64,000 nucleotides of DNA, from contig NZ_JACGWS010000011.1 of NCBI RefSeq assembly GCF_014397005.1, positions 1-64,000 of the forward strand. Reading direction: 5' to 3'. How positions within the stretch are numbered: position 1 is the first letter of the stretch; every line of letters starts with the position of its first letter. This stretch comes from Kordia aestuariivivens. Its GTDB lineage: Bacteria; Bacteroidota; Bacteroidia; Flavobacteriales; Flavobacteriaceae. The notes beneath the pieces were generated by a model. That model had not been told where the DNA came from. It did no database searches and saw nothing but the letters and a program-made list of their open reading frames with translations. Both the position numbers and the translations under genes were made by a program. Shown here in pieces: positions 18,035-41,979 of this stretch.

Positions 18035-18211
18035 CTACAATTCACAATCCCAAACGGTATGGCATTCTGTGTCTGTACAGTCTCTTTCAGTTTCACAAGC
18101 ACACCAAGAGTCATTTGTCCATCTGTTTGTACCACCACTTAAAGCAACACTACGCAGATTTGAAATTGATTTTTTGTTAAGTTTTAATGTGTTAAGATTA
18201 CTTTTTTTCAT
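18035..18211 (-). CDS. GG-leader natural-product precursor peptide (LNKKSI-type leader)
   Basis: A 58-residue peptide. The leader, MKKSNLNTLKLNKKSISNLRSVALSGG, matches the Bacteroidota class I lanthipeptide-type leader pattern (two Leu-rich words, then LNKKxI, then GG at 26-27). The core is about 31 residues with five cysteines, several Thr/Ser and Trp: CACETERDC, DTECH, VWDCEL. It stands alone, with its own TTCG-loop terminator and no modification enzyme nearby. Export and cleavage after GG by a peptidase-containing ABC transporter is the expectation from the leader class. The product is unknown. Confidence 0.7.
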   Translation of the reverse strand: MKKSNLNTLKLNKKSISNLRSVALSGGTNRWTNDSWCACETERDCTDTECHTVWDCEL

Positions 18212-20673: not shown

Positions 20674-20732
20674 AAAAGGTGGTACCCGAAAAACCTCAAA
20701 AGAGTACGGACAATCTAAACAACTTAAATACC
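20674..20732 (+). promoter_or_regulatory. Conserved 5' leader element, copy 1
   Basis: The sequence AAAAGGTGGTACCCGAAAAA, then CCTCAAAAGAGTACGGACAATC, runs to the ATG. AGG and CCT can pair around the loop. The same element precedes the other three tandem peptide genes and the PLP enzyme at 41980. An AATTTG word at 20615, about 115 bases before the start, may be the promoter -7 box. Confidence 0.6.
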
Positions 20733-20912
20733 ATGAAAAAAAACATTTTAAACATCGAAGGAGTTTCTGCAATTTCTAAAGAAGAGCAAAGTCAAATTAA
20801 CGGTGGAGCTGGTTGGGACATTTCCAAATGCGGATGTGACTGTGCAGGACGTGTTACAGGACCAAAATATTGTCCGTGGATTATGGCTTGCCCACAAGTA
20901 TATACTTGTTAA
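20733..20912 (+). CDS. Six-cysteine GG-leader peptide, tandem copy 1
   Basis: A 59-residue precursor. The leader NILNIEGVSAISKEEQSQINGG has the KxEQxxINGG form seen in flavobacterial bacteriocin-like GG peptides. The core after GG is AGWDISK, then CGCDC, AGRVTGPKY and three more cysteines in the pattern C-x-C-x-C-x9-C-x5-C-x5-C, ending at the last cysteine. The core has few Ser/Thr, so lanthionine rings are unlikely; disulfides or other cysteine chemistry are possible. ATG at 20733 is chosen because copies 2-4 align there; the frame is also open upstream. Lacks the short tail of the other copies. Confidence 0.78.
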   Translation: MKKNILNIEGVSAISKEEQSQINGGAGWDISKCGCDCAGRVTGPKYCPWIMACPQVYTC

Positions 20913-20974
20913 TGACAGATAAAAATTTTAGTGAATTATAGATTTACATAAAGTAACTATGATTTAAATGAAAA

Positions 20975-21010
20975 GAATGGCTTCTCAAAAAATTAAGAAG
21001 CCATTTTTTT
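20975..21010 (+). terminator. Terminator after peptide copy 1
   Basis: ATGGCTTCT and AGAAGCCAT form a perfect nine-base stem, followed by seven T. Confidence 0.85.
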
Positions 21011-21033
21011 ACTTAAGCAACAGTTATAAAACC

Positions 21034-21090
21034 AAAAGGTGGTACCCGAAAAACCTCAAAAGAGTACGGACAATCTAAAACTTAAATATC
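21034..21090 (+). promoter_or_regulatory. Conserved 5' leader element, copy 2
   Basis: Almost identical to copy 1 (GGTGGTACCCGAAAAACCTC, then AAAAGAGTACGGACAATC), ending at the ATG of peptide copy 2. Confidence 0.6.
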
Positions 21091-21279
21091 ATGAAAAACA
21101 TTTTAAACATCAAAGGAGTTTCAGCAATTTCTAAAGAAGAGCAAGGTCAAATTAATGGTGGTGCTGGATACGATTTATCAAAATGCGGATGTGATTGCGC
21201 AGGACGTGTTACAGGACCAAAATATTGTAGATGGTTTATAGCGTGCCCACAAGTATATACATGTGGTAGCGACATATAA
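21091..21279 (+). CDS. Six-cysteine GG-leader peptide, tandem copy 2
   Basis: A 62-residue precursor with leader NILNIKGVSAISKEEQGQINGG. The core AGYDLSK, CGCDC, AGRVTGPKYC, RWFIAC, PQVYTC has a four-residue tail GSDI. Cysteine spacing is identical to the other copies; differences from copy 3 lie in the core (YDLS for WDIS, RWFI for PWIM). Each copy has its own leader element and terminator, so copies can be transcribed separately. No processing enzyme is adjacent. Confidence 0.8.
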   Translation: MKNILNIKGVSAISKEEQGQINGGAGYDLSKCGCDCAGRVTGPKYCRWFIACPQVYTCGSDI

Positions 21280-21337
21280 ACTTTCTGAAAAACACATTAA
21301 ATATGGTTCCAACTTATGAAACTATATTTTAGATTAC

Positions 21338-21373
21338 AAAAAGGCTTCTTTTTATATAAAAGAAGCCTTTTTA
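21338..21373 (+). terminator. Terminator after peptide copy 2
   Basis: AAAAAGGCTTCTTTT and AAAAGAAGCCTTTTT form a long stem ending in T; a strong intrinsic terminator. Confidence 0.85.
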
Positions 21374-21500
21374 CTTGTGATAGCAATACATTGAGCAACA
21401 TTGCATAGTGTTTGTTTTATAAAATGAATAGCTGCAATTTGTAAATCAACGAATACTCCTCTTTCCTATCGATATATATGTGTATACTTTTATTGCAATC

Positions 21501-21558
21501 AAAAGGTGGATCCTGAAAAACCTTTAATAGAGTACGGACAATCTAAAACTTAAATATC
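21501..21558 (+). promoter_or_regulatory. Conserved 5' leader element, copy 3
   Basis: AAAAGGTGGATCCTGAAAAA, then CCTTTAATAGAGTACGGACA. AAAGG/CCTTT can pair, and the changes relative to copies 1-2 keep pairing possible. Promoter-like AATTTG sits at about 21440, in the same place as in copy 4. Confidence 0.6.
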
Positions 21559-21747
21559 ATGAAAAACATTTTAAACATCAAAGGAGTTTCAGCAATTTCT
21601 AAAGAAGAGCAAGGTCAAATTAATGGTGGTGCTGGTTGGGACATTTCCAAATGCGGATGTGACTGTGCAGGACGCGTTACAGGACCAAAATATTGTCCAT
21701 GGATTATGGCTTGCCCACAAGTATACACTTGTGGTAATGATATATAA
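21559..21747 (+). CDS. Six-cysteine GG-leader peptide, tandem copy 3
   Basis: A 62-residue precursor. Its leader is identical to copy 2 and its core is that of copy 1 (AGWDISK, CGCDC, PWIMAC, PQVYTC) with the tail GNDI. The repeat unit from copy 2 to 3 to 4 is about 468-469 bases including promoter, leader element and terminator, so amplification was by tandem duplication of whole units. Confidence 0.8.
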   Translation: MKNILNIKGVSAISKEEQGQINGGAGWDISKCGCDCAGRVTGPKYCPWIMACPQVYTCGNDI

Positions 21748-21805
21748 ACTTTCTGAAAAGTGAATTAAATATGGTTCCTATTAATGAAACTATATTTTAG
21801 ATTAC

Positions 21806-21841
21806 AAAAAGGCTTCTTACTATATTATAGAAGCCTTTTTA
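21806..21841 (+). terminator. Terminator after peptide copy 3
   Basis: AAAAAGGCTTCT and AGAAGCCTTTTT around a TACTATATTAT loop; near-identical to the one after copy 2. Confidence 0.85.
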
Positions 21842-21969
21842 CTTGTGATAGCAATACATTGAGCAACATTTTATAATGTTTATTTTATAAAATGAATAGC
21901 TGTAATTTGTAAATCGATGAATACTCCTCTTTCCTATCTACATATATGTGTATACATTTATTGCAATCA

Positions 21970-22027
21970 AAAAGGTGGATCCTGAAAAACCTTTAATAGA
22001 GTAAGGACAATTTATAATTTAAATATC
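21970..22027 (+). promoter_or_regulatory. Conserved 5' leader element, copy 4
   Basis: AAAAGGTGGATCCTGAAAAA, then CCTTTAATAGAGTAAGGACA, with more drift near the ATG (TTTATAATTTAAATATC). Confidence 0.6.
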
Positions 22028-22228
22028 ATGAAAAAAAACATTTTAAACATCAAGGGAGTTTCAGAAATTTCTAAAGAGAAGCAAAGTCAAATTAATGGCG
22101 GAATCGGATTAGGTTCTGGTGTTGGATGTGGATGCGATTGTGCAGGACGTGTTACTGGACCTTTTTATTGTCAACAAATTTTTGGATGTCCACAGGTGTA
22201 TACTTGTGACGATAGCCAAGCATCATAA
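22028..22228 (+). CDS. Six-cysteine GG-leader peptide, tandem copy 4 (divergent)
   Basis: A 66-residue precursor, the most divergent copy. The leader has SEISKEKQSQINGG. The core begins IGLGSGVG, then CGCDC, AGRVTGPFYC, QQIFGC, PQVYTC and a longer tail DDSQAS. All six cysteines, the AGRVTGP block and CPQVYTC are unchanged while the intervening residues vary, so selection appears to act on the cysteine frame. Ends about 25 bases before a strong terminator. Confidence 0.8.
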   Translation: MKKNILNIKGVSEISKEKQSQINGGIGLGSGVGCGCDCAGRVTGPFYCQQIFGCPQVYTCDDSQAS

Positions 22229-22253
22229 ATTTTTGATACTAAATATTCGTATT

Positions 22254-22289
22254 AAAAAAGGCTTCTGAAAATTTCAGAAGCCTTTTTGC
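22254..22289 (+). terminator. Terminator after peptide copy 4
   Basis: AAAAAGGCTTCTGAAA and TTTCAGAAGCCTTTTT form a near-perfect stem. Confidence 0.85.
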
Positions 22290-22312: not shown

Positions 22313-22501
22313 TTAAACTGAAGTTTCACAATCTAATTGATATGAATCAGTTTGTGTTCTTCCTCCTTTTGGAGTTCTTGATTCTTGTATCGTACATGGC
22401 AGTGTAGAATTTGCAATGGTTCCTTTACCAATGATACTAAATGAATTTATTTTTGCTATTTGTATTTTTTTGAGGGCTAAAAATTTTCGTTGCGTTTTCA
22501 T
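22313..22501 (-). CDS. Short GG-peptide-like precursor with atypical cleavage site
   Basis: A 62-residue peptide on the opposite strand, next to the tandem cluster. The start MKTQRKFLALKKIQIAKINSF resembles the Leu/Lys leader of the scattered precursor class, but the cleavage position reads IIGKG rather than GG. The core has two cysteines and is Ser/Thr-rich (NSTLPCTIQESRTPKGG, then RTQTDSYQLDCETSV), which would suit dehydration or thioether chemistry better than the tandem cores. No terminator is seen on its side. It is a real gene by leader resemblance; the function is inferred. Confidence 0.55.
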   Translation of the reverse strand: MKTQRKFLALKKIQIAKINSFSIIGKGTIANSTLPCTIQESRTPKGGRTQTDSYQLDCETSV

Positions 22502-27679: not shown

Positions 27680-27829
27680 TTAAGAACATGGATATCTTGT
27701 CGCAGTTCCTTGACAACCTTGAACTCCTGAATGATCTAGATCACGAATTCCACCTACTACATTCATAACATTAAATTTTAAAATTGTTTTCTTGTTCAAA
27801 GACAAAGAATTTAGATTTCTCTTTTTCAT
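27680..27829 (-). CDS. GG-leader natural-product precursor peptide (LNKKTI-type leader)
   Basis: A 49-residue peptide. Leader: MKKRNLNSLSLNKKTILKF, then NVMNVVGG, with GG at 26-27; this fits the scattered class I lanthipeptide-type leader. The core is 22 residues, IRDLDHSGVQGCQGT and ATRYPCS, with two cysteines, two Thr and two Ser, so one or two thioether rings are conceivable. It is a lone gene; no LanB/LanC-type or other modification enzymes are seen in the window. Confidence 0.68.
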   Translation of the reverse strand: MKKRNLNSLSLNKKTILKFNVMNVVGGIRDLDHSGVQGCQGTATRYPCS

Positions 27830-39615: not shown

Positions 39616-39747
39616 ATGTTAAAAAACATTTCAAATCTTGATGGTGTTAAGACACTAAACAAAAAAGAACAAACAGAAATTAACGGAGGTATTGTCTGCG
39701 CTTGTATTTATTGGGATGCTTCCAAAGGATGGTGGGCATGTTGCTAA
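39616..39747 (+). CDS. GG-leader peptide with Cys/Trp-rich core
   Basis: A 43-residue precursor. Leader MLKNISNLDGVKTLNKKEQ and TEINGG is the KxEQxxINGG type shared with the tandem peptides at 20.7-22.2 kb. The core is 18 residues, IVCACIYWDASKGWWACC, with four cysteines and three tryptophans. It is too short for usual gene callers. It has its own palindromic promoter and terminator. No modification gene is adjacent. The product is unknown. Confidence 0.72.
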   Translation: MLKNISNLDGVKTLNKKEQTEINGGIVCACIYWDASKGWWACC

Positions 39748-41921: not shown

Positions 41922-41979
41922 AGAAGGTGGAATCTGAAAAACCTAAAACGAGTAAGAAACACAATTAAATTGTAGAACG
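41922..41979 (+). promoter_or_regulatory. Conserved 5' leader element ahead of the PLP enzyme gene
   Basis: AGAAGGTGGAATCTGAAAAA, then CCTAAAACGAGTAAGAAACA aligns with the leader elements of the tandem peptides (AAAAGGTGGATCCTGAAAAA, CCTTTAATAGAGTACGGACA), with the same spacing to the start codon. It suggests common regulation. Confidence 0.6.

Follow-up and report, generated by a model that had tools for sequence, protein, structure and literature searches.

A tandem array of GG-leader peptide genes in Kordia aestuariivivens belongs to a conserved six-cysteine family and lies behind DUF805b-type RNA leaders

What is encoded by four small genes that stand in a row in the genome of Kordia aestuariivivens, and what could become of their products? 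The genes lie in a window of 64,000 nucleotides, the whole stretch of DNA analyzed here (positions 1 to 64,000 of contig NZ_JACGWS010000011.1, assembly GCF_014397005.1). They are arranged head to tail on the + strand and encode precursors of 59, 62, 62 and 66 amino acids. Each precursor begins with a leader of the type MKKNILNIKGVSAISKEEQxQINGG, ending with GG in 4/4 copies, and continues with a core in which the frame C-x-C-x-C-x9-C-x5-C-x5-C is exact and the segments AGRVTGP and CPQVYTC are identical in all four copies. An earlier interpretation of the DNA (the sequence-only reading) had described the array in these terms, and its frame, constant segments and coordinates were confirmed. Copy 1 stops at the final cysteine, and copies 2-4 have an extra C-terminal tail of 4-7 amino acids. 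The cores differ from each other at positions 13 and 16-18, contain few serines and threonines as against six cysteines, and show three synonymous and no non-synonymous changes between copies 1 and 3. The blocks upstream of copies 2-4 lie at 21033, 21501 and 21970, with spacings of 468 and 469, which is the period that had been read before; copies 1 and 2 are 355-360 bases apart. The repeat unit of copies 2-4 includes the upstream block and a terminator-like hairpin. An inverted repeat followed by T is read from the sequence after each of the four copies, and a terminator scan gave two hits at threshold, as against 0.6 expected.

A single scan of genome contigs with one window peptide as the query revealed homologues at 75 public loci, in Kordia, Tenacibaculum, Aquimarina, Flavobacterium, Dokdonia, Lacinutrix, Chryseobacterium and one Pedobacter. 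Because of these homologues, the array is more than a chance pattern. When 10,030 small open reading frames (ORFs; 40-200 codons) from the 75 loci and the window were searched with a profile, 109 members were identified. The frame 1-1-9-5-5 is exact in 108 of them and the remaining one has 1-1-9-6-5; this count comes from the profile search and not from a pattern search, in which the pattern itself dictates much of the frame. Thirteen core positions and one leader glycine do not vary among 28 chosen members, and the core consensus is CGC[DS]C[AST]GxVTGPxYCxxxIACPQVYTC. The ratio of non-synonymous to synonymous substitution (dN/dS) was calculated from 80 members containing QVYTC, with pairs that are not independent and synonymous sites near saturation. 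It is 0.053 for the core in Chryseobacterium, 0.104 in Kordia, 0.069 in Tenacibaculum and 0.049 in Flavobacterium, and the leader value (0.12-0.38) is above the core value in each of the four genera. Thus, both homologues with the cysteine frame and a large excess of synonymous changes, on which the sequence-only reading had staked its case, were found.

The family is nearly universal in two genera; their genome sets were assigned because coordinates in G552 and G454 differ by no more than a few bases from those of the named loci L021 and L068, respectively. All 11 Kordia genomes are positive, with 2-4 copies each, and 116 of the 128 Chryseobacterium genomes have at least one copy. In a sample of the phylum, 13/395 genomes matched, including one through the leader alone, and each of the 13 belongs to the same family as either Kordia or Chryseobacterium. 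No Pfam or NCBIfam model, bacteriocin families included, reaches its cut-off for the window peptides. A sequence search of the PDB gave a lone match (E 0.053), taken as chance. No relative was confirmed on plasmids (query: one window peptide) or viral contigs, a phage collection not being searched, and literature searches with core strings found nothing, while those on related topics showed nothing on the family among the matches listed; one listed paper, on VKOR together with C39 and GG, concerns PCAT transporters. Structure prediction gave low confidence (mean predicted local distance difference test, pLDDT, 69.8; predicted template modeling score, pTM, 0.38), no disulfide pattern is claimed, and a fold search of the PDB with the predicted structure gave a single match at E 9.6. 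Judged by these comparisons, the peptide family is real, conserved and so far unnamed. In one locus (L060, near 7883), another GG peptide with a similar leader and a different cysteine core lies beside a family member.

Chryseobacterium offers candidates for export and oxidation of such peptides. The four loci of C39 ATP-binding cassette (ABC) exporters viewed there encode a HlyD-like protein, cysteine-rich GG-leader peptides and a protein of ~502 amino acids with VKOR and thioredoxin parts (VKOR-Trx). Pfam models for VKOR and Thioredoxin_4 matched 3/3 scanned proteins, and HlyD matched 1/1. A VKOR-Trx gene lies near the exporter in all ten fetched loci, which come from genomes selected for having only one C39 match. 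A VKOR-Trx match was found in 116/116 peptide-positive and 5/12 peptide-negative Chryseobacterium genomes (Fisher p 8e-9); in two positives, G430 and G454, the match is in pieces. Among the 12 negatives, seven lack VKOR-Trx, one has a truncated match, one a weak match and three an intact one. C39 at E <= 1.3e-34 was likewise found in 116/116 positives and 4/12 negatives; three of the other negatives have no match and five have weaker matches only. In a clpX tree of 36 genomes, the peptide and VKOR-Trx are missing together on at least four branches: G403, next to a sister, G491, with both (support 0.97); G448, next to a sister, G433, with both (support 1.00); G469 with G445 (weak match); and a group of G488, G458, G477, G451, G494 and G505 (support 0.76 for G488), inside which G458 keeps VKOR-Trx. 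The 36 genomes come from 38 submitted, chosen from the 128; G513 (no match) and G413 (split over two contigs) were left out.

The same company was observed in the other genera. Outside Chryseobacterium, VKOR-Trx matched in 37/37 distinct positives and 7/12 negatives (p 4e-4). For this test 35 of 40 loci were submitted (L032, L034, L048, L051 and L052 were left out, and L036 is not covered); 40 positives were counted as 37 because three genomes, judged from coordinates, are the same as G084, G088 and G289, and more duplicates are possible. Taken together, every positive genome searched, 116 in Chryseobacterium and 37 elsewhere, gives a VKOR-Trx profile match. The restriction of the peptide to genomes with a VKOR protein is a correlation that agrees with disulfides being formed in trans. 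A C39 exporter was found in 6/6 positives of a separate genome set that includes the window genome. Its presence was rejected as a discriminator outside Chryseobacterium; VKOR-Trx alone discriminates there, since C39 is widespread in Flavobacteriaceae. In the window genome, VKOR-Trx profile matches lie at C44:9622-11112 and C4:159049-160563, the C44 protein matches VKOR and a C39-like model, and C39 exporters are encoded on C16 and C1. The C16 stretch (L196) holds the exporter, a HlyD-like ORF and an ORF that is LanB-like by eye.

How are the four genes controlled? The block upstream of each of them matches the cis-regulatory RNA DUF805b of Rfam (RF02914) in sequence, hairpin and location ahead of genes, with copy 4 above the gathering score and copies 1-3 below it (Table 1). 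The elements stand ~20 nt upstream of the start codon. The window genome contains 54 matches at E <= 0.1, of which 29 are over the gathering score. Because the same threshold yields matches below the cut-off in 7/14 control genomes, the lowest-scoring of the 54 could be due to chance. With the stricter limit of E <= 1e-6, DUF805b was found in 93/395 genomes of the phylum and in 0/14 controls. An ORF begins with ATG 16-29 nt downstream of 51/54 elements, compared with 1303/20000 random window positions. Thirty-three of the 54 precede an ORF of fewer than 110 amino acids, and a GG- or GA-leader peptide follows 24 by eye (28 by a looser script pattern).

The structure line of the Rfam model is a hairpin only. 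We found a second helix, in which the part of the loop that precedes GAAAA is paired with the bases that follow GAGTA. Among 51 of the 54 elements of the window genome (three were dropped as their anchors differ), the most variable pair of this helix is Watson-Crick in 42, as against 14.2 in shuffles, and the next variable pair in 43, as against 30.2; these shuffles overstate the difference because some elements of the genome are paralogues of each other. The first pair also holds in 26 of 29 elements from other genomes, each the best match of its genome, as against 12.4 in shuffles; the second pair hardly varies there. Furthermore, in 52 elements hand-picked for variety from 100, the two helices are 93.2% paired, compared with 71.2% when shuffled and at most 52.0% when slid; 81 cells are altered on both sides, compared with 24.9 in shuffles, and pairing in the second helix by itself reaches 95.5%. 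Two of five covariation measures were no better than shuffles (both-side-changed pairs, 5 vs 4.8; further pair types, 14 vs 15.0). The outermost hairpin pair is poor (15/39 unpaired), a fourth pseudoknot pair is unsupported (11/51 vs 9.3 in shuffles), and simple RNA folding of three copies does not single out the elements (z 0.55 to 0.73). Judged from covariation, DUF805b forms an H-type pseudoknot. In outline, the preQ1-I class riboswitches are alike, being ~35 nt long with an H-type pseudoknot near the start codon; an Rfam scan of the window gave no other riboswitch at the DUF805b places.

The sequence-only reading had taken the upstream block for a promoter carried along with an amplified expression unit. 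The unit was borne out insofar as the upstream block and the terminator-like repeat recur, and a promoter was not shown: the block is a DUF805b RNA, and covariation of the pseudoknot, as RNA-level evidence, speaks against a simple promoter. A sigma-70 scan gave 6 promoter-like sites, fewer than the 8.7 expected. The motif TAnnTTTG occurs within 80 nt upstream of 4/54 elements (3.4 in shuffles), and all four are at -34 to -25, compared with an expectation of 1.3 for the stretch from -40 to -10.

DUF805b is also found with peptides at exporter loci. We scanned 14 exporter or VKOR loci, and in 8 of the 10 Chryseobacterium loci there are 17 elements that exceed the gathering score. Each of the 17 stands 17-23 nt before a short ORF. 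By eye, 15 of these ORFs have a leader ending in GG (11), GA (2) or GS (2), and the remaining two (L160 and a 37-amino-acid ORF in L164) have a similar start and no clear site. No element over the gathering score was found in L156, L165, L202, L204 and the Tenacibaculum loci L198 and L199. In L162, seven elements within ~5 kb each precede a different short GG- or GA-leader peptide. In the window genome, the second VKOR-type gene (G000:C4:159004-160563; L101) is directly followed by a DUF805b element and a small peptide gene with cysteines. Other genes behind DUF805b across the phylum are putative DUF805 itself and signal-peptide proteins, and in L287 and L272 the ORFs behind it resemble by eye a nitrile-hydratase-type leader peptide and rhodopsin. 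A literature search on DUF805b found nothing; the pseudoknot and the peptide link, both beyond the Rfam model, may already be published in the original description of the element. The link to GG-peptide genes appears to be the most novel part of this work.

The genomic place of the peptide gene is kept within a genus. Among ORFs of at least 90 codons near the peptide, none but its own frame is common to more than two genera; shorter genes were not clustered. A conserved neighbor as a maturase or immunity gene was therefore rejected; any gene for maturation, export or immunity would, in most genera, act from another place in the genome. The setting is the same in Flavobacterium (10 loci) and Lacinutrix, in which three common ORFs lie 0.3 to 1.3 kb away (medians) and others farther out; by eye, the three resemble an Lrp/AsnC regulator and metabolic enzymes. 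Aquimarina and Chryseobacterium have two distant ORFs in common, 5.5 and 7.6 kb away.

With moderate confidence, we favor the reading that the family consists of exported three-disulfide peptides. A C39 ABC exporter encoded elsewhere would remove the GG leader and export the core, and a VKOR protein would drive formation of the three disulfides in trans. In the window and before the other Kordia members that have the element, DUF805b would control translation of the peptide gene along with that of many other GG-peptide genes, and tandem amplification of whole units would raise the dose and let the cores diverge. The mature peptide might be, with less assurance, a conserved extracellular signal or surface-active peptide and not a strain-specific bacteriocin. 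An extended proposal, that DUF805b is a pseudoknotted ligand- or ribosome-sensing switch setting translation of the entire C39-exported, VKOR-oxidized secretome of Flavobacteriia and that the six-cysteine family is a conserved peptide pheromone put under this switch in Kordia, is rather unlikely.

Several observations weigh against the exported three-disulfide peptide. The second leader glycine is replaced by K, Q or E in 10/109 members (Aquimarina and two Flavobacterium), residues that C39 peptidases are not known to accept; those of their genomes covered by the VKOR-Trx search still give a match. G421 and G458 have an intact VKOR-Trx and no peptide, as does G513, although its assembly is 73% complete. 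C39 exporters are present in 17/18 Flavobacteriaceae genomes with or without the peptide. In the window genome, the C44 VKOR protein matches no thioredoxin model at E <= 0.001 and no C39 exporter lies within the 19 kb examined around its gene. Paired absence of the peptide and VKOR-Trx may reflect a general loss of secretion islands. As for DUF805b, an element-like pattern precedes 10/22 Kordia members, the window's four included, and is lacking from 12/22 Kordia members and 86/87 others; the sole case outside Kordia, in Lacinutrix, is a loose match that was not scored by the model.

The sequence-only reading had proposed an undescribed family of secreted cysteine-bridged peptides, bacteriocins or signals. 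The homologues, the frame, purifying selection and the company of VKOR-Trx and C39 uphold the family; bacteriocin and signal are indistinguishable by sequence. Class II-type bacteriocins or microcins, exported GG peptides that kill related cells and are amplified for diversity, would explain the GG leader, the small size and the tandem copies that vary at a few core positions, and copy 1 has a sub-threshold match to Bacteriocin_IIc through its GG-type leader region (12.6 bits; cut-off 27.1). However, the core is almost invariant across genera, the peptide is nearly universal in Chryseobacterium and Kordia, and copies on plasmids and in viruses were not found. Both this conservation and the absence of an immunity-like neighbor (at least 90 amino acids) common to many genera speak against an ordinary bacteriocin, which we consider unlikely; a conserved signal fits better. 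The family is like the bacteriocin-like GG peptides of the Chryseobacterium C39 loci in its short precursor, its Lys-rich leader ending with GG, its several cysteines and the exporter and VKOR-Trx in the genome. It is unlike them in lying away from the exporter and in having one near-invariant core across genera, and the cores look dissimilar by eye, without alignment.

A RiPP (ribosomally synthesized and post-translationally modified peptide), in which a trans-acting enzyme modifies the cysteines to a radical SAM thioether or an MNIO product, is quite improbable. It would agree with six cysteines beside few Ser or Thr and with a leader in copy 1 that weakly resembles TIGR04149 (14 bits; cut-off 25, the likeness again lying in the GG-type region). 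The Chryseobacterium MNIO enzyme ChrH is reported to act in RiPP biosynthesis (PMC12636315). On the other side, no SPASM protein (PF13186, E <= 0.001) was found in 41/116 peptide-positive Chryseobacterium, in a search of this genus that did not test MNIO or other radical SAM families. This absence speaks against a thioether RiPP, and a SPASM protein was rejected as a required partner in Chryseobacterium. SCIFF peptides (ranthipeptides) have six cysteines in forty-five residues. The family is like them as a short conserved peptide with six cysteines and unlike them in having no SPASM protein in 41/116 positive genomes and no widely shared neighbor.

An intracellular metal-binding or redox peptide, whose leader would be a targeting tag that is not always removed, seems very doubtful. 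The CxCxC opening, the high cysteine content, the invariance typical of a housekeeping role and the loss of the second G in 10/109 members would suit it, but the Chryseobacterium leader resembles that of the exporter-locus GG peptides and VKOR-Trx is a constant companion. For a lanthipeptide, the cores have few Ser/Thr against six cysteines and there is no widely shared neighbor, no search for Lan enzymes having been made.

The features of the array are collected in Table 1. Elsewhere in the window, a fifth DUF805b element (41924-41958, +, 38.6 bits) is separated by 21 nt from the ATG of a downstream ORF of 493 amino acids without an assigned function. A further GG-leader peptide with another cysteine-containing core is encoded at 39619-39747 (+), without a DUF805b match. 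Three more small peptides are encoded at 18035-18211 (-), 27680-27829 (-) and 22313-22501 (-); the leaders of the first two weakly resemble those of class I lanthipeptides (NF038153, below cut-off).

Table 1. Positions of RNA leaders, peptide genes and terminator-like repeats in the tandem array
Feature	Position	Strand	Remark
DUF805b-type RNA leader, copy 1	20676-20710	+	30.9 bits, E 9.1e-5, below gathering score (35.6)
Peptide precursor, copy 1	20733-20912	+	59 aa, without C-terminal tail
Inverted repeat and T-run after copy 1, terminator-like	20976-21005		scan placed it on the - strand
DUF805b-type RNA leader, copy 2	21036-21070	+	30.9 bits, E 9.1e-5, below gathering score
Peptide precursor, copy 2	21091-21279	+	62 aa
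Inverted repeat and T-run after copy 2	21338-21372		
DUF805b-type RNA leader, copy 3	21503-21538	+	31.1 bits, E 7.8e-5, below gathering score
Peptide precursor, copy 3	21559-21747	+	62 aa
Inverted repeat and T-run after copy 3	21806-21840		read from the sequence
DUF805b RNA leader, copy 4	21972-22007	+	41.2 bits, E 2.8e-8, above Rfam gathering score
Peptide precursor, copy 4	22028-22228	+	66 aa, core FYC in place of KYC
Terminator-like hairpin after copy 4	22255-22287	+	terminator scan

In summary, Kordia and Chryseobacterium have a near-universal, almost invariant candidate for an exported peptide. Because it has neither a family model nor a dedicated gene cluster, such a peptide is missed by cluster mining. 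That it occurs together with VKOR-thioredoxin proteins points to a trans route for making disulfide-rich peptides in Gram-negative bacteria. Furthermore, an orphan Rfam element gains a pseudoknot, a target set rich in GG leaders and a role that can be tested.

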